IMG/VR virus record: IMGVR_UViG_3300001533_001815
Location: 1-21,655 of that record
Length of the DNA: 21,655 bases
Origin: a virus
Strand: one strand, 5' to 3'
Within the stretch, counting starts at the first letter, position 1. Each line of letters opens with the position of its first letter. Below, in pieces: positions 3,223-13,925 of the stretch. The notes beneath the pieces are model-generated. The model was not told the origin of the DNA, ran no database searches, and saw nothing but the letters and a program-made list of their open reading frames with translations. A program made the position numbers and the translations under genes.

Positions 3223-4350
3223 ATGTTAATTAAAGCAGTAACTTATAAAGATGGATATAGAAATAGTAATATATTGTCTGTAGAATATACAGTTAGTATT
3301 CCATCAGATTTTGGGTTATGGAGTTGGGGAGATAATGTTTTTGGTCAACTTGGCTTAAAAGATATAATACCTAGATCATCACCTGTCCAAGTTAGTTCTT
3401 CAACTGATTGGAGTCAAATAAGTTGTGGTGAACATACAGTAGCAATCAAAACAGATGGAACTTTATGGTCATGGGGAAAGAACAGTAATGGTCGACTTGG
3501 TTTGGGAGATACGATAAGTAGATCGTCACCAGTTCAAGTTGGTTCTTTAACTAATTGGTTACAAGTTTCTTGTAGTTCATATAATCATACAGTAGCAATT
3601 AAAACTGATGGAACTTTATGGAGTTGGGGATCAAATGACTATGGTGAACTTGGTTTAGGAGATAGAACAAGACGATCATCACCAGTTCAAGTTGGTTCTT
3701 TAAATAATTGGGAGCAGGCGATTTGTGGAACTTCTCATACAGTAGCAATTAAAACTGATGGAACTTTATGGTCATGGGGACTTAATACTTATGGTCAACT
3801 CGGTTTAGGAGATATAACACGACGATCATCACCAGTTCAAGTAGGTTCTTTAAATAATTGGACTAAAGTTTCTTGTGGCAATCATACAATAGCAATTAAA
3901 ACAGATGGAACCTTATGGTCATGGGGATTTAATATTTATGGTCAACTTGGATTAGGAAATAGAATACATCAATCATCACCAGTTCAAGTAGGTTCTTTAA
4001 CTAATTGGAGTCAAATAAGTGGTAGCGGTTCTAATAGTGTAGCAATTAAAACAGATGGAACTTTATGGTCTTGGGGAGATATAGAAGATAGATCATCACC
4101 AGTTCAAGTTGGTTCTTTAACCAATTGGAGTCAGATAAGTAGTTCATATCATACAGCAGCAATTAAAACTGATGGAACTTTATGGAGTTGGGGATCAAAT
4201 GACTATGGTCAACTTGGTTTGGGAGATATGTCAGAAGATAGATTATCACCAGTTCAAGTTGGAACTTTAACTAATTGGTTACAAATTTCTTGTGGTACAT
4301 ATCATACAGTATCTATAAAAGGGGAGTTACCTCTTCCTCCACCTACATAA
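3223..4350 (+). CDS. RCC1-type beta-propeller tail protein
   Basis: 375 residues. Residues 2-25 (LIKAVTYKDGYRNSNILSVEY) look like the missing last strands of the beta-sandwich cut off at the end of the preceding gene. Residues ~32-366 are seven tandem RCC1 repeats of about 50 residues with the pattern LWSWG.N.YGQLGLGD, SSPVQVGSL.NW, then HTVAIKTDGT. Seven repeats fit a complete seven-bladed propeller. Repeat 6 lacks the NDYGQLGLGD segment and is about ten residues short. RCC1-like propellers bind proteins or ligands; in a phage tail block the likely role is a receptor-contact or fibre protein. The ribosome binding site AAGGGAG overlaps the previous stop; the spacing to ATG 3223 is 9 bases. 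Confidence 0.85.
   Translation: MLIKAVTYKDGYRNSNILSVEYTVSIPSDFGLWSWGDNVFGQLGLKDIIPRSSPVQVSSSTDWSQISCGEHTVAIKTDGTLWSWGKNSNGRLGLGDTISRSSPVQVGSLTNWLQVSCSSYNHTVAIKTDGTLWSWGSNDYGELGLGDRTRRSSPVQVGSLNNWEQAICGTSHTVAIKTDGTLWSWGLNTYGQLGLGDITRRSSPVQVGSLNNWTKVSCGNHTIAIKTDGTLWSWGFNIYGQLGLGNRIHQSSPVQVGSLTNWSQISGSGSNSVAIKTDGTLWSWGDIEDRSSPVQVGSLTNWSQISSSYHTAAIKTDGTLWSWGSNDYGQLGLGDMSEDRLSPVQVGTLTNWLQISCGTYHTVSIKGELPLPPPT
3310..4320 (+). repeat. Seven near-identical RCC1-coding tandem repeats (~150 bp units)
   Basis: The DNA units are highly alike: the segment CCAGTTCAAGTTGGTTCTTT recurs with very few changes in most units. This is closer than protein function alone would require, so unit exchange, loss or recent duplication is likely. 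The sixth unit carries an in-frame deletion of roughly 30 bases. Confidence 0.85.
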
Positions 4351-9727: not shown

Positions 9728-9767
9728 GTAAAGAGTCACTTTATTTCCTTTAAAAGTGACTCTTTAC
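9728..9767. terminator. Bidirectional hairpin between convergent genes
   Basis: GTAAAGAGTCACTTT (9728-9742) and AAAGTGACTCTTTAC (9753-9767) form a perfect 15-bp stem with a 10-base loop. It sits between the plus-strand sheath gene and the minus-strand repeat block; the last minus-strand frame ends inside it. There is no strong T run on either side, so it may act as a weak terminator or an mRNA-end stabiliser. Confidence 0.65.
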
Positions 9768-10329
9768 GAGTTCAACAGCAGGACCATCTTCTCGATGAAG
9801 TTTATTATTTAACCACCATTCTTTAGTTCCATCTGCATATTCGATTAGCAGGACCATCTTCTCGATGTAGTTTACCCTTCTTATACCATTCTTTAGTTCC
9901 ATTTGCAAATTCAATAGCAGGACCATCTTCTCGATGTAGTTTACCATTTCTGCACCAACGTTTATCTCCATTTTCAAATTCAATAGCAGGACCATCTTCT
10001 CGGTGACGTTCTCCATTTAACCACCATTCTTTAGTTCCACTAATAAATTCAACTGCTGGTCCATCTTCTCGATGAAGTTTTCCATTTTTATACCATTCTT
10101 TAGTTCTACTAGAATATTCAACTGCTGGTCCATCTTCTCGATGACGTTCTCCATTTTTAAACCATTGTTTAGTTCCACTTGCATATTCAATAGCAGGACC
10201 ATCTTCACGATGAAGTAAATCATTTTTATACCAACTTTTATCTCCATTTATTTCTTCAACTGCAGGACCATCTTTTCGATGAAGTTTGCGGTTTTTATTC
10301 CATTCAATTTTAACTTTGCTTACTTCTAT
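9750..10329 (-). pseudogene. Third repeat-protein copy: headless and frameshifted
   Basis: The frame begins at IEVSKVKIEWN, which equals the segment just before the repeats in the two intact copies (IEVSKVRTEWN), but the ~65-residue Cys-bearing head is missing. The upstream sequence is instead the last repeat of the second copy, in another frame. Eight HREDGPA-type repeats follow. In the seventh, the + strand reads CGATTAGCAGG near 9841-9851 where other units read CGATAGCAGG: one extra T shifts the frame, ending one frame at 9823 and continuing the repeats in another to the stop at 9750. A head-deleting recombination plus a one-base insertion explains this. A sequencing error for the extra T cannot be excluded. 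Confidence 0.7.
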
Positions 10330-11262
10330 GTTCAATAGCAGGACCATCTTCTCGATGATATTTACCATTTCTATACCAATATTTATTTCCGTTTGCAAAT
10401 TCAATAGCAGGACCACCTTCTCGATGAATTGAACCATTAAACCACCATTCTTTTCTCCCATCTGAATATTCGATAGCAGGACCATCTTCACGATGAAGTC
10501 TACCCTTCTTATACCATTCTTTAGTTCCATCTGCATATTCTATAGTAGGACCATCTTCTCGATGGGGTTTACCATTTAACCACCATTCTTTAGTTCCGTT
10601 TGCATGTTCAATAGCAGGACCATCTTCTCGATGATATTGACCATTTCTATTCCATTCAGTTCTAACTTTGCTTACTTCTATTGTTATTTTTTTATCCAAA
10701 TTTAAACTTATATTATATAAAGTTGGTAAACTCATTAACCTATAACTTAAATTGTTGTGATTAGAAAAGTCTTCGATTACTAATTTATTTAAATTTATAT
10801 AATTTAAAAGTTCTTCACAGCCATTTTTACATATTGTTTTTATTAAACAGTTATCGCAAATCATTTATAATAACCCCTCTAATATTTTTTCCATTTAACC
10901 ACCACTCTTTAATTCCATTATAATATTCAATTGCTGGACCACCTTCCCGATGAAGTCTGCCCTTCTTATACCATTCTTTTCTCCCATTTGTAAGTTCAAT
11001 AGCAGGACCATCTTCTCGATGAAGTTTTCCATTTTTAAACCAACGTTTATCTCCATTTGTAAGTTCAATAGCAGGACCATCTTCTCGGTGGTATTTACCA
11101 TTTTTGCACCAACGTTTATCTCCATTTGCAAGTTCAATAGCAGGACCACCTTCTCGATGAAGTCTACCCTTCTTATACCATTCTTTAGTTCCATCTGCAT
11201 ATTCAATAGCAGGGCCATCATCTCGATGATATTGACCATTTTTATTCCATCGAGTTTGAAGA
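9770..11262 (-). repeat. Array of ~69-bp repeats coding 23-residue HREDGPA units
   Basis: About 17-18 units in three clusters, interrupted by the conserved head of the second copy (about 10665-10864). Each unit codes roughly HREDGPAIE-x(3)-GTKEW-x(2)-NGK-x. Units are close enough in DNA for slipped pairing and unequal exchange, which fits the headless third copy. Confidence 0.85.
10310..10864 (-). CDS. Cys-headed tandem-repeat protein (MORN-variant-like), copy 2
   Basis: 184 residues. Head of about 65 residues beginning MICDNCLIKTICKNGCEELL, with four Cys that could bind a metal ion, then YRLMSLPTL and a strand KKITIEVSKV. Then four and a half repeats of about 23 residues (HREDGPAIEHANGTKEWWLN and relatives). 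These Trp/Gly-rich repeats resemble MORN-variant repeats that I associate with large phages and giant viruses, role unknown. It ends abruptly inside a repeat (IEHRSKQS) where it meets the remnant of copy 3, so its C-terminus is probably abnormal. ATG 10864 overlaps the end of copy 1 by 14 bases in a different frame, after AGAGGGG. Confidence 0.75.
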   Translation of the reverse strand: MICDNCLIKTICKNGCEELLNYINLNKLVIEDFSNHNNLSYRLMSLPTLYNISLNLDKKITIEVSKVRTEWNRNGQYHREDGPAIEHANGTKEWWLNGKPHREDGPTIEYADGTKEWYKKGRLHREDGPAIEYSDGRKEWWFNGSIHREGGPAIEFANGNKYWYRNGKYHREDGPAIEHRSKQS

Positions 11263-11465
11263 TTATTTACTTCTATTGTTATTTTTTTATCCAAATTTAA
11301 ACTTATAGTTATAGTATGTAAAGTTGGTAAACTCATTAACCTATAACTTAAATTTTCGTGATTAGAAAAGTCTTCGATTACTAATTTACTTGAATTTATA
11401 TAATTTAAAAGTTCTTCACAGCCATTTTTACATATTGATTTTATTAAACAGTTATCACAAATCAT
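10851..11465 (-). CDS. Cys-headed tandem-repeat protein (MORN-variant-like), copy 1
   Basis: 204 residues. The head (MICDNCLIKSICKNGCEELL through ISLNLDKKITIEV) is almost identical to copy 2, so these are recent tandem duplicates. Five repeats follow, with HREDGPAIELTNGDKRWFKN as a typical unit. The C-terminal tail NIRGVIINDLR replaces a sixth repeat and runs into the start of copy 2. ATG 11465 has a good binding site (AAGGAG). Repeats of alternating Trp, Gly and acidic residues suggest a beta-rod-like surface. Role unknown; a protein-binding or membrane-associated role is only a guess from MORN proteins in general. Confidence 0.8.
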   Translation of the reverse strand: MICDNCLIKSICKNGCEELLNYINSSKLVIEDFSNHENLSYRLMSLPTLHTITISLNLDKKITIEVNNLQTRWNKNGQYHRDDGPAIEYADGTKEWYKKGRLHREGGPAIELANGDKRWCKNGKYHREDGPAIELTNGDKRWFKNGKLHREDGPAIELTNGRKEWYKKGRLHREGGPAIEYYNGIKEWWLNGKNIRGVIINDLR

Positions 11466-11493: not shown

Positions 11494-11835
11494 TTAAATA
11501 TTTATTTTATTATTTTCTTCTGTATTCTTACAAAAAATTTCTTTAACATTTATTTTATTTTTTCTTATCCAAACTCCCGTTCTGCATGGTTCATTTATAT
11601 TAGATTCTATTTGACCATGACTATAACAAGGGAGTTTTTTATACCAGTTATAGTGATGAATTTTACAGATTGCTATGTCTCCATCCCAAGTTAGATGAGG
11701 ACATGGTTCGTTATTTACACATAAAAATGCTTCTTCTGGAAGTTTATCTATGTTTAAATTTTCTTTAACAAAATCTGGATGAATAGTAACAAGCATAGAA
11801 GTACAACAACATTTTCCACATCGTTGACAGATCAT
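11494..11835 (-). CDS. CxxCxxCC (YkgJ-like) metal- or Fe-S-binding protein
   Basis: 113 residues. The N-terminus MICQRCGKCCCTSMLVTIHP carries C3, C6, C9, C10 and C11, followed by CVNNEPCPHL, ICKIHHYNWYKKLPCYSHG and a late Cys. This is the layout of the YkgJ-type CxxCxxCC family, annotated as a putative zinc- or iron-chelating domain, reaction unknown. The ATG follows AGGAG; it starts 11 bases after the preceding gene's stop. Being in one unit with a radical SAM enzyme, it might supply or protect a metal centre, or be a target; that is inference. Confidence 0.75.
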   Translation of the reverse strand: MICQRCGKCCCTSMLVTIHPDFVKENLNIDKLPEEAFLCVNNEPCPHLTWDGDIAICKIHHYNWYKKLPCYSHGQIESNINEPCRTGVWIRKNKINVKEIFCKNTEENNKINI

Positions 11836-11846
11836 ATTTTTATCTC

Positions 11847-12395
11847 CTAATCTAAATTCCCAATTTCTTTTAATTTTTTATCCACTTCAATCTGATATTT
11901 TTGTAAATCGTTCGCAATTTTTAAAGATTCATCAATTACGTTTTGGTTCATCATTTGAAATAAATTAATTATTATAATATTAACTCGTTTCGTCTCTTGC
12001 CCCCTAATATAAGTTAAATATCCTTCTTTACTATTTTCATTATATCTTTTTATGAATCTTTTATATTCTTCCCCACTTTTTCGTAGGGGGTTTGTAATAG
12101 ATTTAACAACAAGTCCTAATTCATCTAAGACTGATAAAAGATAGAAACCTGCTACAGGATTTAATAAAGCGTTATTTAGTAAACTAACAACTGGTGAAAA
12201 TTTAATAGCATCTGCAATTTTCTTAATTTGATTTAATTCAACTTGATTTATATCAAATTGACCAACTTGTTCACGTAGAGTTAAAAAATTACTAATATCA
12301 AAATTTGGTGGTACTGAAACGAATTCCACCAAGAAGTAATTTTCAACTAAATTAAATTTAGCGTTATCAACTGCATTATCAATATTCATATTCAT
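11847..12395 (-). CDS. Unrecognised 182-residue protein
   Basis: I start at ATG 12395 (MNMNIDNAVDN) because CTCCTT at 12402-12407 is an AAGGAG site at 6 bases; the frame is open further upstream but the extra part overlaps the preceding gene. The protein is helix-rich, with a hydrophobic middle (VVSLLNNALLNPVAGFYLLS) too polar at its edges to be a confident membrane span, and a charged C-terminus that may form a coiled coil (DLQKYQIEVDKKLKEI). Its binding site includes the stop of the NSSSS-motif gene, so the two are coupled. Confidence 0.7.
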   Translation of the reverse strand: MNMNIDNAVDNAKFNLVENYFLVEFVSVPPNFDISNFLTLREQVGQFDINQVELNQIKKIADAIKFSPVVSLLNNALLNPVAGFYLLSVLDELGLVVKSITNPLRKSGEEYKRFIKRYNENSKEGYLTYIRGQETKRVNIIIINLFQMMNQNVIDESLKIANDLQKYQIEVDKKLKEIGNLD

Positions 12396-12405
12396 ATTTT
12401 TCTCC

Positions 12406-12909
12406 TTAGTGTTGGTTAATTCTAATATACTTAAGGTTTGAAAAAATATTTCCGTGCTCCATTTCAGCAGAATACTCGTTATCATCACTATATGAAAGTA
12501 TATAAATATAATTGTCATTTAAAACTCCTTCTAAAAATTGTTTAGTTTTTTCATAAGCTAATTCTCGTTTTTTCGTTTGTAACTTATCTATAAATGTTCT
12601 ATACCACTCAGAATTTTGGTTTAGTTTTTCTTTTGTAATATTTTCTCTCCTGCAAAAATTAGTCATCATTCTCTCATAACCACTTCCAAAGTTCAATACA
12701 TCATCTTCTAATTCTTTACAAATTGAAATTAAAGTATCTGGAGCATTTTTTGACATAGCTCTTGAAGATATTGCATCATTAAATACAGTTTTTGCATATT
12801 TCTTGTCAATAAACTCTTCAACATCTTCTATAGTAGTAATTTTTCTTGGCCATACTATAATAAAAGTTGAGCTTGAGGAGTTTGTTATAAAAGATTTTTT
12901 AATTTTCAT
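12406..12909 (-). CDS. NSSSS-motif protein of unknown function
   Basis: 167 residues from ATG 12909, chosen because AAGGAG lies 8 bases upstream; a further upstream start would fall inside the previous gene. The N-terminus MKIKKSFITNSSSSTFIIVW is a striking signature. From memory, proteins beginning with K..F(V/I)(T/S)NSSSSSF occur in many phages and some bacteria with otherwise unrelated bodies and no known role. The rest is helical and charged (EDVEEFIDKKY, KKRELAYEKTKQFLEG). It follows the radical SAM gene by 14 bases. It could be a modified or processed substrate of that enzyme; this is inference only. Confidence 0.75.
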   Translation of the reverse strand: MKIKKSFITNSSSSTFIIVWPRKITTIEDVEEFIDKKYAKTVFNDAISSRAMSKNAPDTLISICKELEDDVLNFGSGYERMMTNFCRRENITKEKLNQNSEWYRTFIDKLQTKKRELAYEKTKQFLEGVLNDNYIYILSYSDDNEYSAEMEHGNIFSNLKYIRINQH

Positions 12910-12923
12910 AGAATAATCTCCTT

Positions 12924-13925
12924 TTAAAAAAGTGGGCATTTTCTAGGGTTAGTAAGTAGTTGGTTTCTAAATTTATTAAAAATTTGTGAGTGATTCCATA
13001 TATTATAGATATCTTGATTTTCTGTAATATCTATTGCAAAAAACTCTGGATTTGCAAAACTACATGGCATCATTTTCATATCTGGAGTTATATATGCTGA
13101 TTGTCTAGCACCTTCACAAGTATCTATTGATAGAGATTGTATTTTATCTGGTTGTTCATAATACAGAACTTTATTAACCAGACAACTATCAATACCAACT
13201 AAAAACTTGCTTTTAGGTTTAAATATATGTTTAGAAAATTCTTTTAATTGCATACCAGTTGGACTCCAATCTAAATTTTTTCCTGATCCTTGTGGTTTGA
13301 ATAATAAGAATAAAACTGAAAATAATTTATCTATATTGACTTTTCCATTCCACACATCATTACCATTAAGAATTTGAATTACTTTATCATGTGATTCTTT
13401 TGAGTATATTAGATGTATGCAAACTTTTATTCCAGCTTCTATTAAATCATTTATAGCTTTGAAGGTATGATCTTTTCCATAATCACTAACTCCAATTGCT
13501 CCACAAAGTTTTGAGGATTCTATTTCCTCTTTTGTTAAATTAATTCCACTTGTTGTGTAATTTGGTGCAACTTTGTTTTCTCGACAGTAAACTAAAATTT
13601 CTTTGAAATTTTCATGTTTGTTAGGATCTCCTCTTCCTCCTAATGCTACTTGACTTACATGATGTTTAGTTTGATCTATTATTTTTTTGAAATCATCTAA
13701 TTTCATATTTGGTCTATTGATATGACCTTGATAACAAAATTTACATTTATTTTGACATGTTCCCATTATTCCAATATCAAGTAGTGATGGAAGTTCTAAA
13801 GAGAAGGGATCTGGAAAACCATTTATCCCTCTTAAAATCTCAAACCCTGTAATTTCATTAAATAAAAGTTCGTATTTGTCATTACTAAATTTTTTTGTAA
13901 AAATTAAAACTGATTTTTTTGACAT
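12924..13925 (-). CDS. Radical SAM enzyme with SPASM/twitch-like C-terminus
   Basis: 333 residues from ATG 13925, preceded by AAAGGA; a TTG five codons upstream is less likely. The CX3CX2C motif (Cys57, 61, 64 in TCQNKCKFCY) binds the [4Fe-4S] cluster that cleaves S-adenosylmethionine. A GG(R)GDP motif (96-101) replaces the usual GGEP. After the barrel, Cys248, Cys270 (TCEGARQSAYITPDMKMMPC), Cys288 and Cys330 (KCPLF at the C-terminus) are placed to hold one auxiliary cluster, as in twitch/SPASM enzymes that modify peptides. Reaction unknown. It is the first gene of the minus-strand block and directly precedes the NSSSS protein. Rare as a phage cargo gene inside a tail module. Confidence 0.88.
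   Translation of the reverse strand: MSKKSVLIFTKKFSNDKYELLFNEITGFEILRGINGFPDPFSLELPSLLDIGIMGTCQNKCKFCYQGHINRPNMKLDDFKKIIDQTKHHVSQVALGGRGDPNKHENFKEILVYCRENKVAPNYTTSGINLTKEEIESSKLCGAIGVSDYGKDHTFKAINDLIEAGIKVCIHLIYSKESHDKVIQILNGNDVWNGKVNIDKLFSVLFLLFKPQGSGKNLDWSPTGMQLKEFSKHIFKPKSKFLVGIDSCLVNKVLYYEQPDKIQSLSIDTCEGARQSAYITPDMKMMPCSFANPEFFAIDITENQDIYNIWNHSQIFNKFRNQLLTNPRKCPLF

Follow-up and report, generated by a model that had tools for sequence, protein, structure and literature searches.

Peptide maturases such as SuiB, SkfB and MftC combine a radical S-adenosylmethionine (rSAM) core with a SPASM-type domain and have a nearby substrate that carries a conserved N-terminal recognition sequence. A similar arrangement is present in the stretch of DNA analyzed here, positions 1 to 21,655 of the IMG/VR virus record IMGVR_UViG_3300001533_001815 (referred to as the window), a 21.7-kb fragment bearing contractile-tail genes. 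In this window, an rSAM/SPASM-type enzyme of 333 aa (12924..13925, minus strand) is followed by a 167-aa protein (12406..12909, minus strand), whose first 18 residues, MKIKKSFITNSSSSTFII (12856..12909, minus strand), form a conserved unit with an NSSSS motif that we call the tag; the remainder of the protein we call the body. The sequence comparisons described below suggest that the two proteins are probably the enzyme and the substrate of a widespread tag-modification system. The catalytic principle is presumably shared with leader-directed rSAM modification, but the system differs from the known maturases in several ways. The enzyme scores far under the curated cut-offs, one enzyme would serve many bodies, and the candidate substrates are folded proteins of ~95-480 aa that have the conserved element at the N-terminus itself and contain no short core peptide.

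Anaerobic sulfatase-maturating enzymes (anSME) are SPASM rSAM enzymes that act on Ser or Cys in a short protein motif. The motif here is instead N-S-S-S near the N-terminus, no sulfatase was seen nearby, and the NCBIfam matches listed for the window enzyme did not include an anSME model. Avs/AVAST and other anti-phage systems based on STAND nucleoside triphosphatases (NTPases) resemble the bacterial operons in our data set, which contain a NACHT/Avs2-like NTPase with exchangeable effectors; however, these operons add a conserved trio of an untagged small protein, a tagged paralogue and an rSAM. An rSAM/SPASM gene predicted to modify a peptide within an NTPase-based conflict system was described by Kaur et al. 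2020 (PMC7159879), where the peptides have a conserved C-terminal FxSxx-type motif and the systems include MPTase and VMAP or FtsH/vWA/MoxR components. The components are thus different, and the text of that paper makes no mention of the NSSS motif. Finally, the RB16-like relatives of T4 encode members of PHROG 7293 and PHROG 7397, both listed as having unknown function. The rSAM and the tag gene are ~20 kb apart in RB16, whereas they are adjacent in the window. We found no description of the tag motif, or of such an rSAM in phages or in STAND systems, in the open-access literature, and the rSAM-tag system is apparently undescribed.

The window enzyme is a member of the rSAM superfamily according to Pfam Radical_SAM PF04055 (2.3e-8, 34.8 bits with a cut-off of 29.5), and it lies barely above the cut-off for Pfam SPASM (1.5e-4, 22.4 bits with a cut-off of 21.5). 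A preliminary description of this DNA had reported a CX3CX2C motif and four later cysteines. Both are present: the cluster motif CQNKCKFC positions C57, C61 and C64, and residues C248, C270, C288 and C330 are invariant across 18 relatives. The full seven-cysteine SPASM motif, which corresponds to two auxiliary Fe-S clusters, was not found in the window enzyme, which ends after CPLF and has only C270, C288 and C330 (plus C248). The second half of the motif is kept in bacterial relatives, which suggests, by analogy, that the phage enzymes carry one auxiliary cluster rather than two. In the enzyme tree, the phage and bacterial proteins form two groups with well-supported branches between them. 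The window enzyme falls below the NCBIfam cut-offs of the curated peptide-maturase equivalogs (MftC, PqqE, WgkB, sactipeptide and KxxxW); its best scores were 38.4 of 265 bits for MftC (8e-10) and 35.9 of 381 for PqqE, and a plasmid relative reached 84 of 265 bits for MftC. In a PDB search, the nearest solved structures were the peptide-modifying enzymes SkfB (6efn) and SuiB (5v1q). The enzyme matches PHROG 7293 (4.7e-24), and the tagged protein matches PHROG 7397 (2.5e-9).

These comparisons also bear on the possibility that the enzyme makes a small molecule, such as a nucleotide or a cofactor, and that the tag binds or carries it, the tagged proteins being sensors or carriers. The enzyme does show a weak likeness to viperin (PADLOC pVip, 5e-6 for the window enzyme and 1e-13 for the plasmid relative), and its core is weakly similar to MoaA and mycofactocin models. 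However, all of these matches lie far under the family cut-offs (16.8 of 180 bits for the prokaryotic viperin equivalog), the closest solved structures are peptide-modifying, and no conserved downstream metabolic enzymes were found. No small-molecule rSAM family, a match to which the preliminary description had regarded as contradicting a protein substrate, reached its cut-off among the NCBIfam models. We consider a small-molecule product quite improbable.

The tag has the consensus MKIKxDFVTNSSSSSFIV and, with the alternatives at each position, reads M-[KR]-[IV]-[KR]-x-[DG]-F-[VI]-[TS]-N-S-S-S-[STA]-x-F-[IV]-[IV]. We grouped 278 distinct tagged proteins into 40 families by their bodies, which are unrelated. 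When one representative of each family was compared, N10, S11 and S12 were invariant, S13 was present in 39 of 40, and F7 and F16 were nearly invariant. Conservation ends at residue 18, and the information content is ~1 bit or less from residue 19 onward. Tags on unrelated bodies are more alike within a genome (identity 0.77) than between genomes (0.68). Nevertheless, where different bodies of one genome have identical tag residues, only 47% of the codons are the same, and within-genome pairs of Ser11-13 codons are switched between TCN and AGY in 219 of 557 cases. Because the codons differ while the residues are alike, selection appears to act on the peptide, and DNA copying does not account for the likeness. 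We also considered whether NSSSS could be a chance or low-complexity artifact and rejected this, since there were no matches in 2.2 Mb of shuffled sequence, and the leader motif occurred 84 times within 2.5 kb of related bacterial rSAMs, as compared to twice in an equal length farther out.

AlphaFold models were obtained for the window tagged protein (predicted local distance difference test, pLDDT, 88) and for a bacterial one (pLDDT 90). Residues 1-9 and 1-7, respectively, are predicted to be disordered, and in both models the folded body opens with a strand at 13-20. These boundaries would place N10-S13 at the exposed junction of a flexible tail and a folded body. Fold searches with both models gave no convincing match: the best Z scores in the VIA search were 3.5 for the bacterial model and 5.8, to the helices of lambda GamS over about half of the phage model, and the best Foldseek E values were 2.5 in PDB and 0.15 in BFVD. 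This result is no demonstration that the folds are new. No Pfam or NCBIfam models cover the tagged proteins, and the profiles of bacterial and phage tagged proteins align over the tag only. Direct tblastn of the window tagged protein or of the tag against phage records gave no match, probably because of low-complexity masking of the Ser run and divergence.

The enzyme and the tag occur together far outside the window. A tblastn search of plasmids with the tag consensus gave seven weak matches in Agrobacterium, Rhizobium and Rhodobacter. Three of the plasmid regions were inspected, and in each an rSAM lay directly after the tagged protein, although the query contained the tag only. The one plasmid rSAM compared with the window enzyme was 33% identical to it over the full length (2e-49). 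A scan of a genome collection with a joint rSAM alignment yielded 80 bacterial and archaeal loci from Pseudomonadota, Bacteroidota, Bacillota, Cyanobacteriota, Chloroflexota, Acidobacteriota, Verrucomicrobia, Planctomycetota, Thermodesulfobacteriota, Spirochaetia and others. Two of the contigs were cut off, and NSSSS genes were present at 77 of the 78 informative loci, normally immediately upstream of the rSAM. In 75 cases the gene was within 1.5 kb, one locus (L164) has an NSSTT variant in the expected place, and another (L158) has four tag-like genes slightly farther away. The only informative locus lacking a tag, L168, has a truncated rSAM. The association was also seen when both profiles were run against 398 genomes from a single phylum: the tag profile hit 10, and the rSAM profile hit the same 10, 9 of them at 1e-60 (Fisher p = 1.6e-17 for the 9-of-10 table). 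The tenth genome (G690) has an rSAM in two pieces on two contigs (5e-60 and 2e-28), one of which adjoins the tag gene. A Vibrio rSAM-tag locus had no DNA match in complete E. coli genomes.

In viruses, a scan with the window rSAM alone gave 19 loci, and an alignment-based scan retained 80 with 52-84% identity; after some duplicates were left out, 75 loci and the window made up a set of 76. An intact NSSSS gene lies just downstream of the rSAM in 44 of these, in one to three copies and in many cases within 25 nt, and the tagged proteins of these operons have wholly different bodies with residues 1-18 unchanged. Conversely, a tag-only scan of viral contigs found 80 loci, 74 of them with an rSAM of the window family. 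Of the remaining six, four have their upstream part cut off, and L263 and L267 are distal clusters beside SbcCD-like genes. Each of ten phage contigs of 101-548 kb contains one rSAM of the window family and 3-11 tags, some of them >40 kb from the rSAM. In two phages the rSAM gene contains an in-frame stop codon (TAG in G802:C1:87449-88459, from a 548-kb phage, and TAA in G808:C1:23020-24018, from a 154-kb phage), which may reflect stop-codon recoding or decay.

The T4-like phages RB16, RB43 and Matisse each have the rSAM and two tag genes ~20 kb from it. Their rSAMs had at first appeared to lack partners, an impression that was overturned when a search of the whole records found the tag genes. 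In T4 and RB69 the tag was not found, even at E=1. RB16p111 is related to the window tagged protein over the full length (26% identity, 5e-8) and matches PHROG 7397 at 6e-118; RB16p156 and RB16p111 are full-length members of PHROG 7293 and 7397, respectively. Among 50,697 phage records, the rSAM was found in 172, p111 in 175 and p106 in 174, and the counts match for Enterobacter, Cronobacter, Citrobacter and Escherichia phages, the overlap having been compared at the level of the genus, not per record. Two further features of RB16 were noted: a 739-aa vWA-domain protein, RB16p109, lies between the two tag genes (L272, RB16 66186-71242), and the body of p106 also matches a head-tail adaptor PHROG (3e-10).

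A short, flexible N-terminal element would also be expected of a targeting signal, and the tag might accordingly serve localization or assembly without any relation to the rSAM, the two travelling together by linkage on mobile elements. This does not fit the continued co-occurrence of the rSAM with tags located >40 kb away and in different modules, nor the T4-like phages without the rSAM, which have no tag. Moreover, the order of the tag and rSAM genes is reversed between phages and bacteria. We therefore regard mobile-element linkage as the least probable explanation, and a highly improbable one.

The reciprocal genomic association in phages and in many bacterial phyla instead strongly supports the NSSSS protein as the predicted target of the rSAM, as the preliminary description had proposed. 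In this system, a single rSAM of the window family per genome would recognize the 18-residue tag on one to eleven unrelated proteins and act on it in trans. The tagged proteins as a whole have nothing else in common in their sequences, and so recognition, and probably the chemistry too, should lie within the tag. A ribosomal precursor with a conserved recognition sequence that co-occurs with a maturase is the pattern of ribosomally synthesized and post-translationally modified peptides and is present here; the tag itself may be the modified part. Catalysis by the rSAM on the tag is likely, and would involve abstraction of a hydrogen within the tag and a radical-based change, most likely at N10-S11-S12-S13, although we give the NSSS residues only an even chance of being the modification site. 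The product would be a modified protein, with no released peptide. Candidate chemistries are Ser- or Asn-centered oxidation, epimerization, backbone cleavage and linkage to a neighboring residue; sactionine, thioether and Trp-Lys linkages are unlikely because neither Cys nor Trp is conserved in the tag. Alternatively, the tagged proteins could be partners of the rSAM (a chaperone, a recognition subunit or an electron donor) that present another substrate. Untagged paralogues adjoin the tagged proteins both in bacteria (hhalign 98.7%, 117 columns) and in phages, and could be that target. However, one conserved fold would normally be expected of a partner, whereas the tagged proteins have ~40 unrelated bodies and share only the tag; a genome can have as many as 11 of them, some encoded at a distance from the rSAM. 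A partner role is thus unlikely.

Several observations weigh against modification of the tag by this enzyme. The collection pattern constrains positions 1-13, with alternatives allowed at most of them, which partly builds in the conservation there, though not at 14-18. As many as 32 of the 76 phage rSAM loci, several clades among them, have no local tag gene, and 12 of the 32 contigs (fragments of 11-52 kb) show no tag elsewhere, bar one remnant. One locus, L007, retains the rSAM while its tag protein is reduced to the C-terminal 36 codons (in another, L031, the tag gene is frameshifted), and in the uncultured 462-kb phage LR756500 a distant rSAM is present but the tag is absent. Because the SPASM domain of the phage enzymes is truncated, their chemistry may differ from that of the bacterial enzyme. 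In addition, a second rSAM family of ~350 aa (NWLLTRKCNLECEYC..FYGGEPLLR) is present in jumbo phages (L268:329-1396, L269:6634-7698, L270:222-1268 and L267:5416-6459), where it overlaps or directly adjoins tag genes in distal positions, next to SbcC/SbcD-like and UvsW-like genes. This position suggests that it could be a further tag-modifying enzyme, acting on these tags instead of the first or as well. Nonetheless, the preliminary description had expected that, if it were wrong, homologues of the rSAM would mostly lack an NSSSS neighbor, and this was not found: tagless phage loci exist, but in the T4-like phages the tags are ~20 kb away. Between the tag genes and the SbcD-like gene of three phage loci we also noted small pilin-like proteins (GFTLVEVLVVIV..., resembling a class III signal peptide; L263:6204-6401, L269:2794-3042 and L270:4874-5137).

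The bacterial operons offer an indication of function. In 70 of 74 the order is a large protein (~850-1050 aa where intact), a small protein (~120-150 aa), the tagged protein (mostly 131-140 aa) and the rSAM. The P-loop GQGKT is present in 66 of the 70 large proteins, as in STAND/NACHT NTPases, and those tested match Avs2 or NACHT models. They have exchangeable effectors, either N-terminal or neighboring: an SMEK nuclease, a trypsin with an Avs1a-like MBL protein, or an LCAT-type lipase. The small protein is the untagged homologue of the tagged protein; in the examples tested, neither was matched by PADLOC, Pfam or NCBIfam. Occurrences of the module are few and scattered (for example, 1 of 395 Bacteroidota genomes), as expected of defense genes. 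We infer that the bacterial product serves Avs/NACHT-like STAND NTPase immunity operons as a subunit or regulator. Since the tagged/untagged pair is located immediately after STAND NTPases whose effectors are exchangeable, it may, after modification, regulate the NTPase or sense for it. A different context was seen in four Bacillota loci (L178, L179, L180 and L277), where a membrane protein precedes an rSAM with a stretched cluster motif (CAHGKSGLCIKSGVECYQ) and then a tagged protein of ~480 aa, possibly a secreted or cell-surface system.

For the phage proteins, small size, fast turnover of bodies, the presence of several copies and sporadic loss suggest, though with less than even odds, a role as host-takeover or counter-defense factors. 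A shared code, in which bacteria arm STAND-NTPase complexes and tagged phage mimics dock to, saturate or disarm them, is a rather doubtful extension of this idea. If the proposal is correct, one radical enzyme per genome serves an N-terminal tag on dozens of unrelated folded proteins, in a system that spans jumbo phages, >170 sequenced records of T4-like enterobacterial phages and defense-like operons of many phyla. It would tie a phage module to bacterial STAND-NTPase immunity, give a testable biochemical hypothesis to hypothetical proteins such as RB16p106, RB16p111 and the bacterial NSSSS proteins, and supply an 18-residue sequence that might serve as a genetic handle in fusions with other proteins. 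The E. coli phages RB16 and RB43 bring the chemistry and the purpose of the system within experimental reach.

The organization of the window operon is as the preliminary description had claimed: four genes follow one another on the minus strand, with 14 nt between the rSAM stop and the start of the tagged gene (12909), which is preceded by AAGGAG. The stop of the tagged gene (TAAGGAG) overlaps the next ribosome-binding site, as does the stop that follows (TAGGAG). The third gene encodes an untagged 183-aa protein of the 'EFVSVPPNFDI..LREQ' family (11847..12398, minus strand), whose start is most likely at 12398. It is widespread in phage rSAM operons, where a CreA-like secreted protein (NCBIfam CreA 7e-13, below the cut-off) often comes next. 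The 183-aa protein also shares homology with the bodies of some tagged proteins from other phages (hmmsearch ~1e-6, hhalign 96.6%). The pairing of untagged and tagged homologues thus recurs in both bacteria and phages. The fourth gene encodes a co-transcribed 113-aa CxxCxxCC protein (11494..11835, minus strand). The label YkgJ-like, given to it earlier, stands as far as the motif MICQRCGKCCC is concerned; the score against Pfam CxxCxxCC PF03692 is below the cut-off (12.6 of 23 bits, E=0.23). Its suggested role as a substrate or component did not hold up, since it occurs in only 3 of the 76 loci (the window, L049 and L057), and it is probably an accessory gene outside the system. Upstream of the phage rSAM there is often a small transmembrane protein with an acidic tail and a KKL/KRL-like C-terminal end (L010, L012, L016, L019 and L027), which is absent in the window.

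The operon is flanked by a HAD-like/HNH pair on one side and by the sheath gene on the other. The tail sheath has its nearest annotated relatives in AR9/PBS1, phiR1-37 and the MarsHill-type staphylococcal phages (27-29% identity), and the window therefore comes from a large myophage. A tail-specific role is not supported, given that the rSAM-tag module also occurs in other phage modules and in bacterial operons, and the location inside the tail module is incidental. Beside the operon, at 9750-11465 (minus strand), lie tandem genes of 'NGxxHREDGPAIEYADGTKEWxxx' repeats, whose overlapping frames suggest frameshifted copies. At 3223-4350, the window encodes a protein of RCC1-like repeats (LWSWGxNxxGQLGLGD), which is unusual in a phage structural region.

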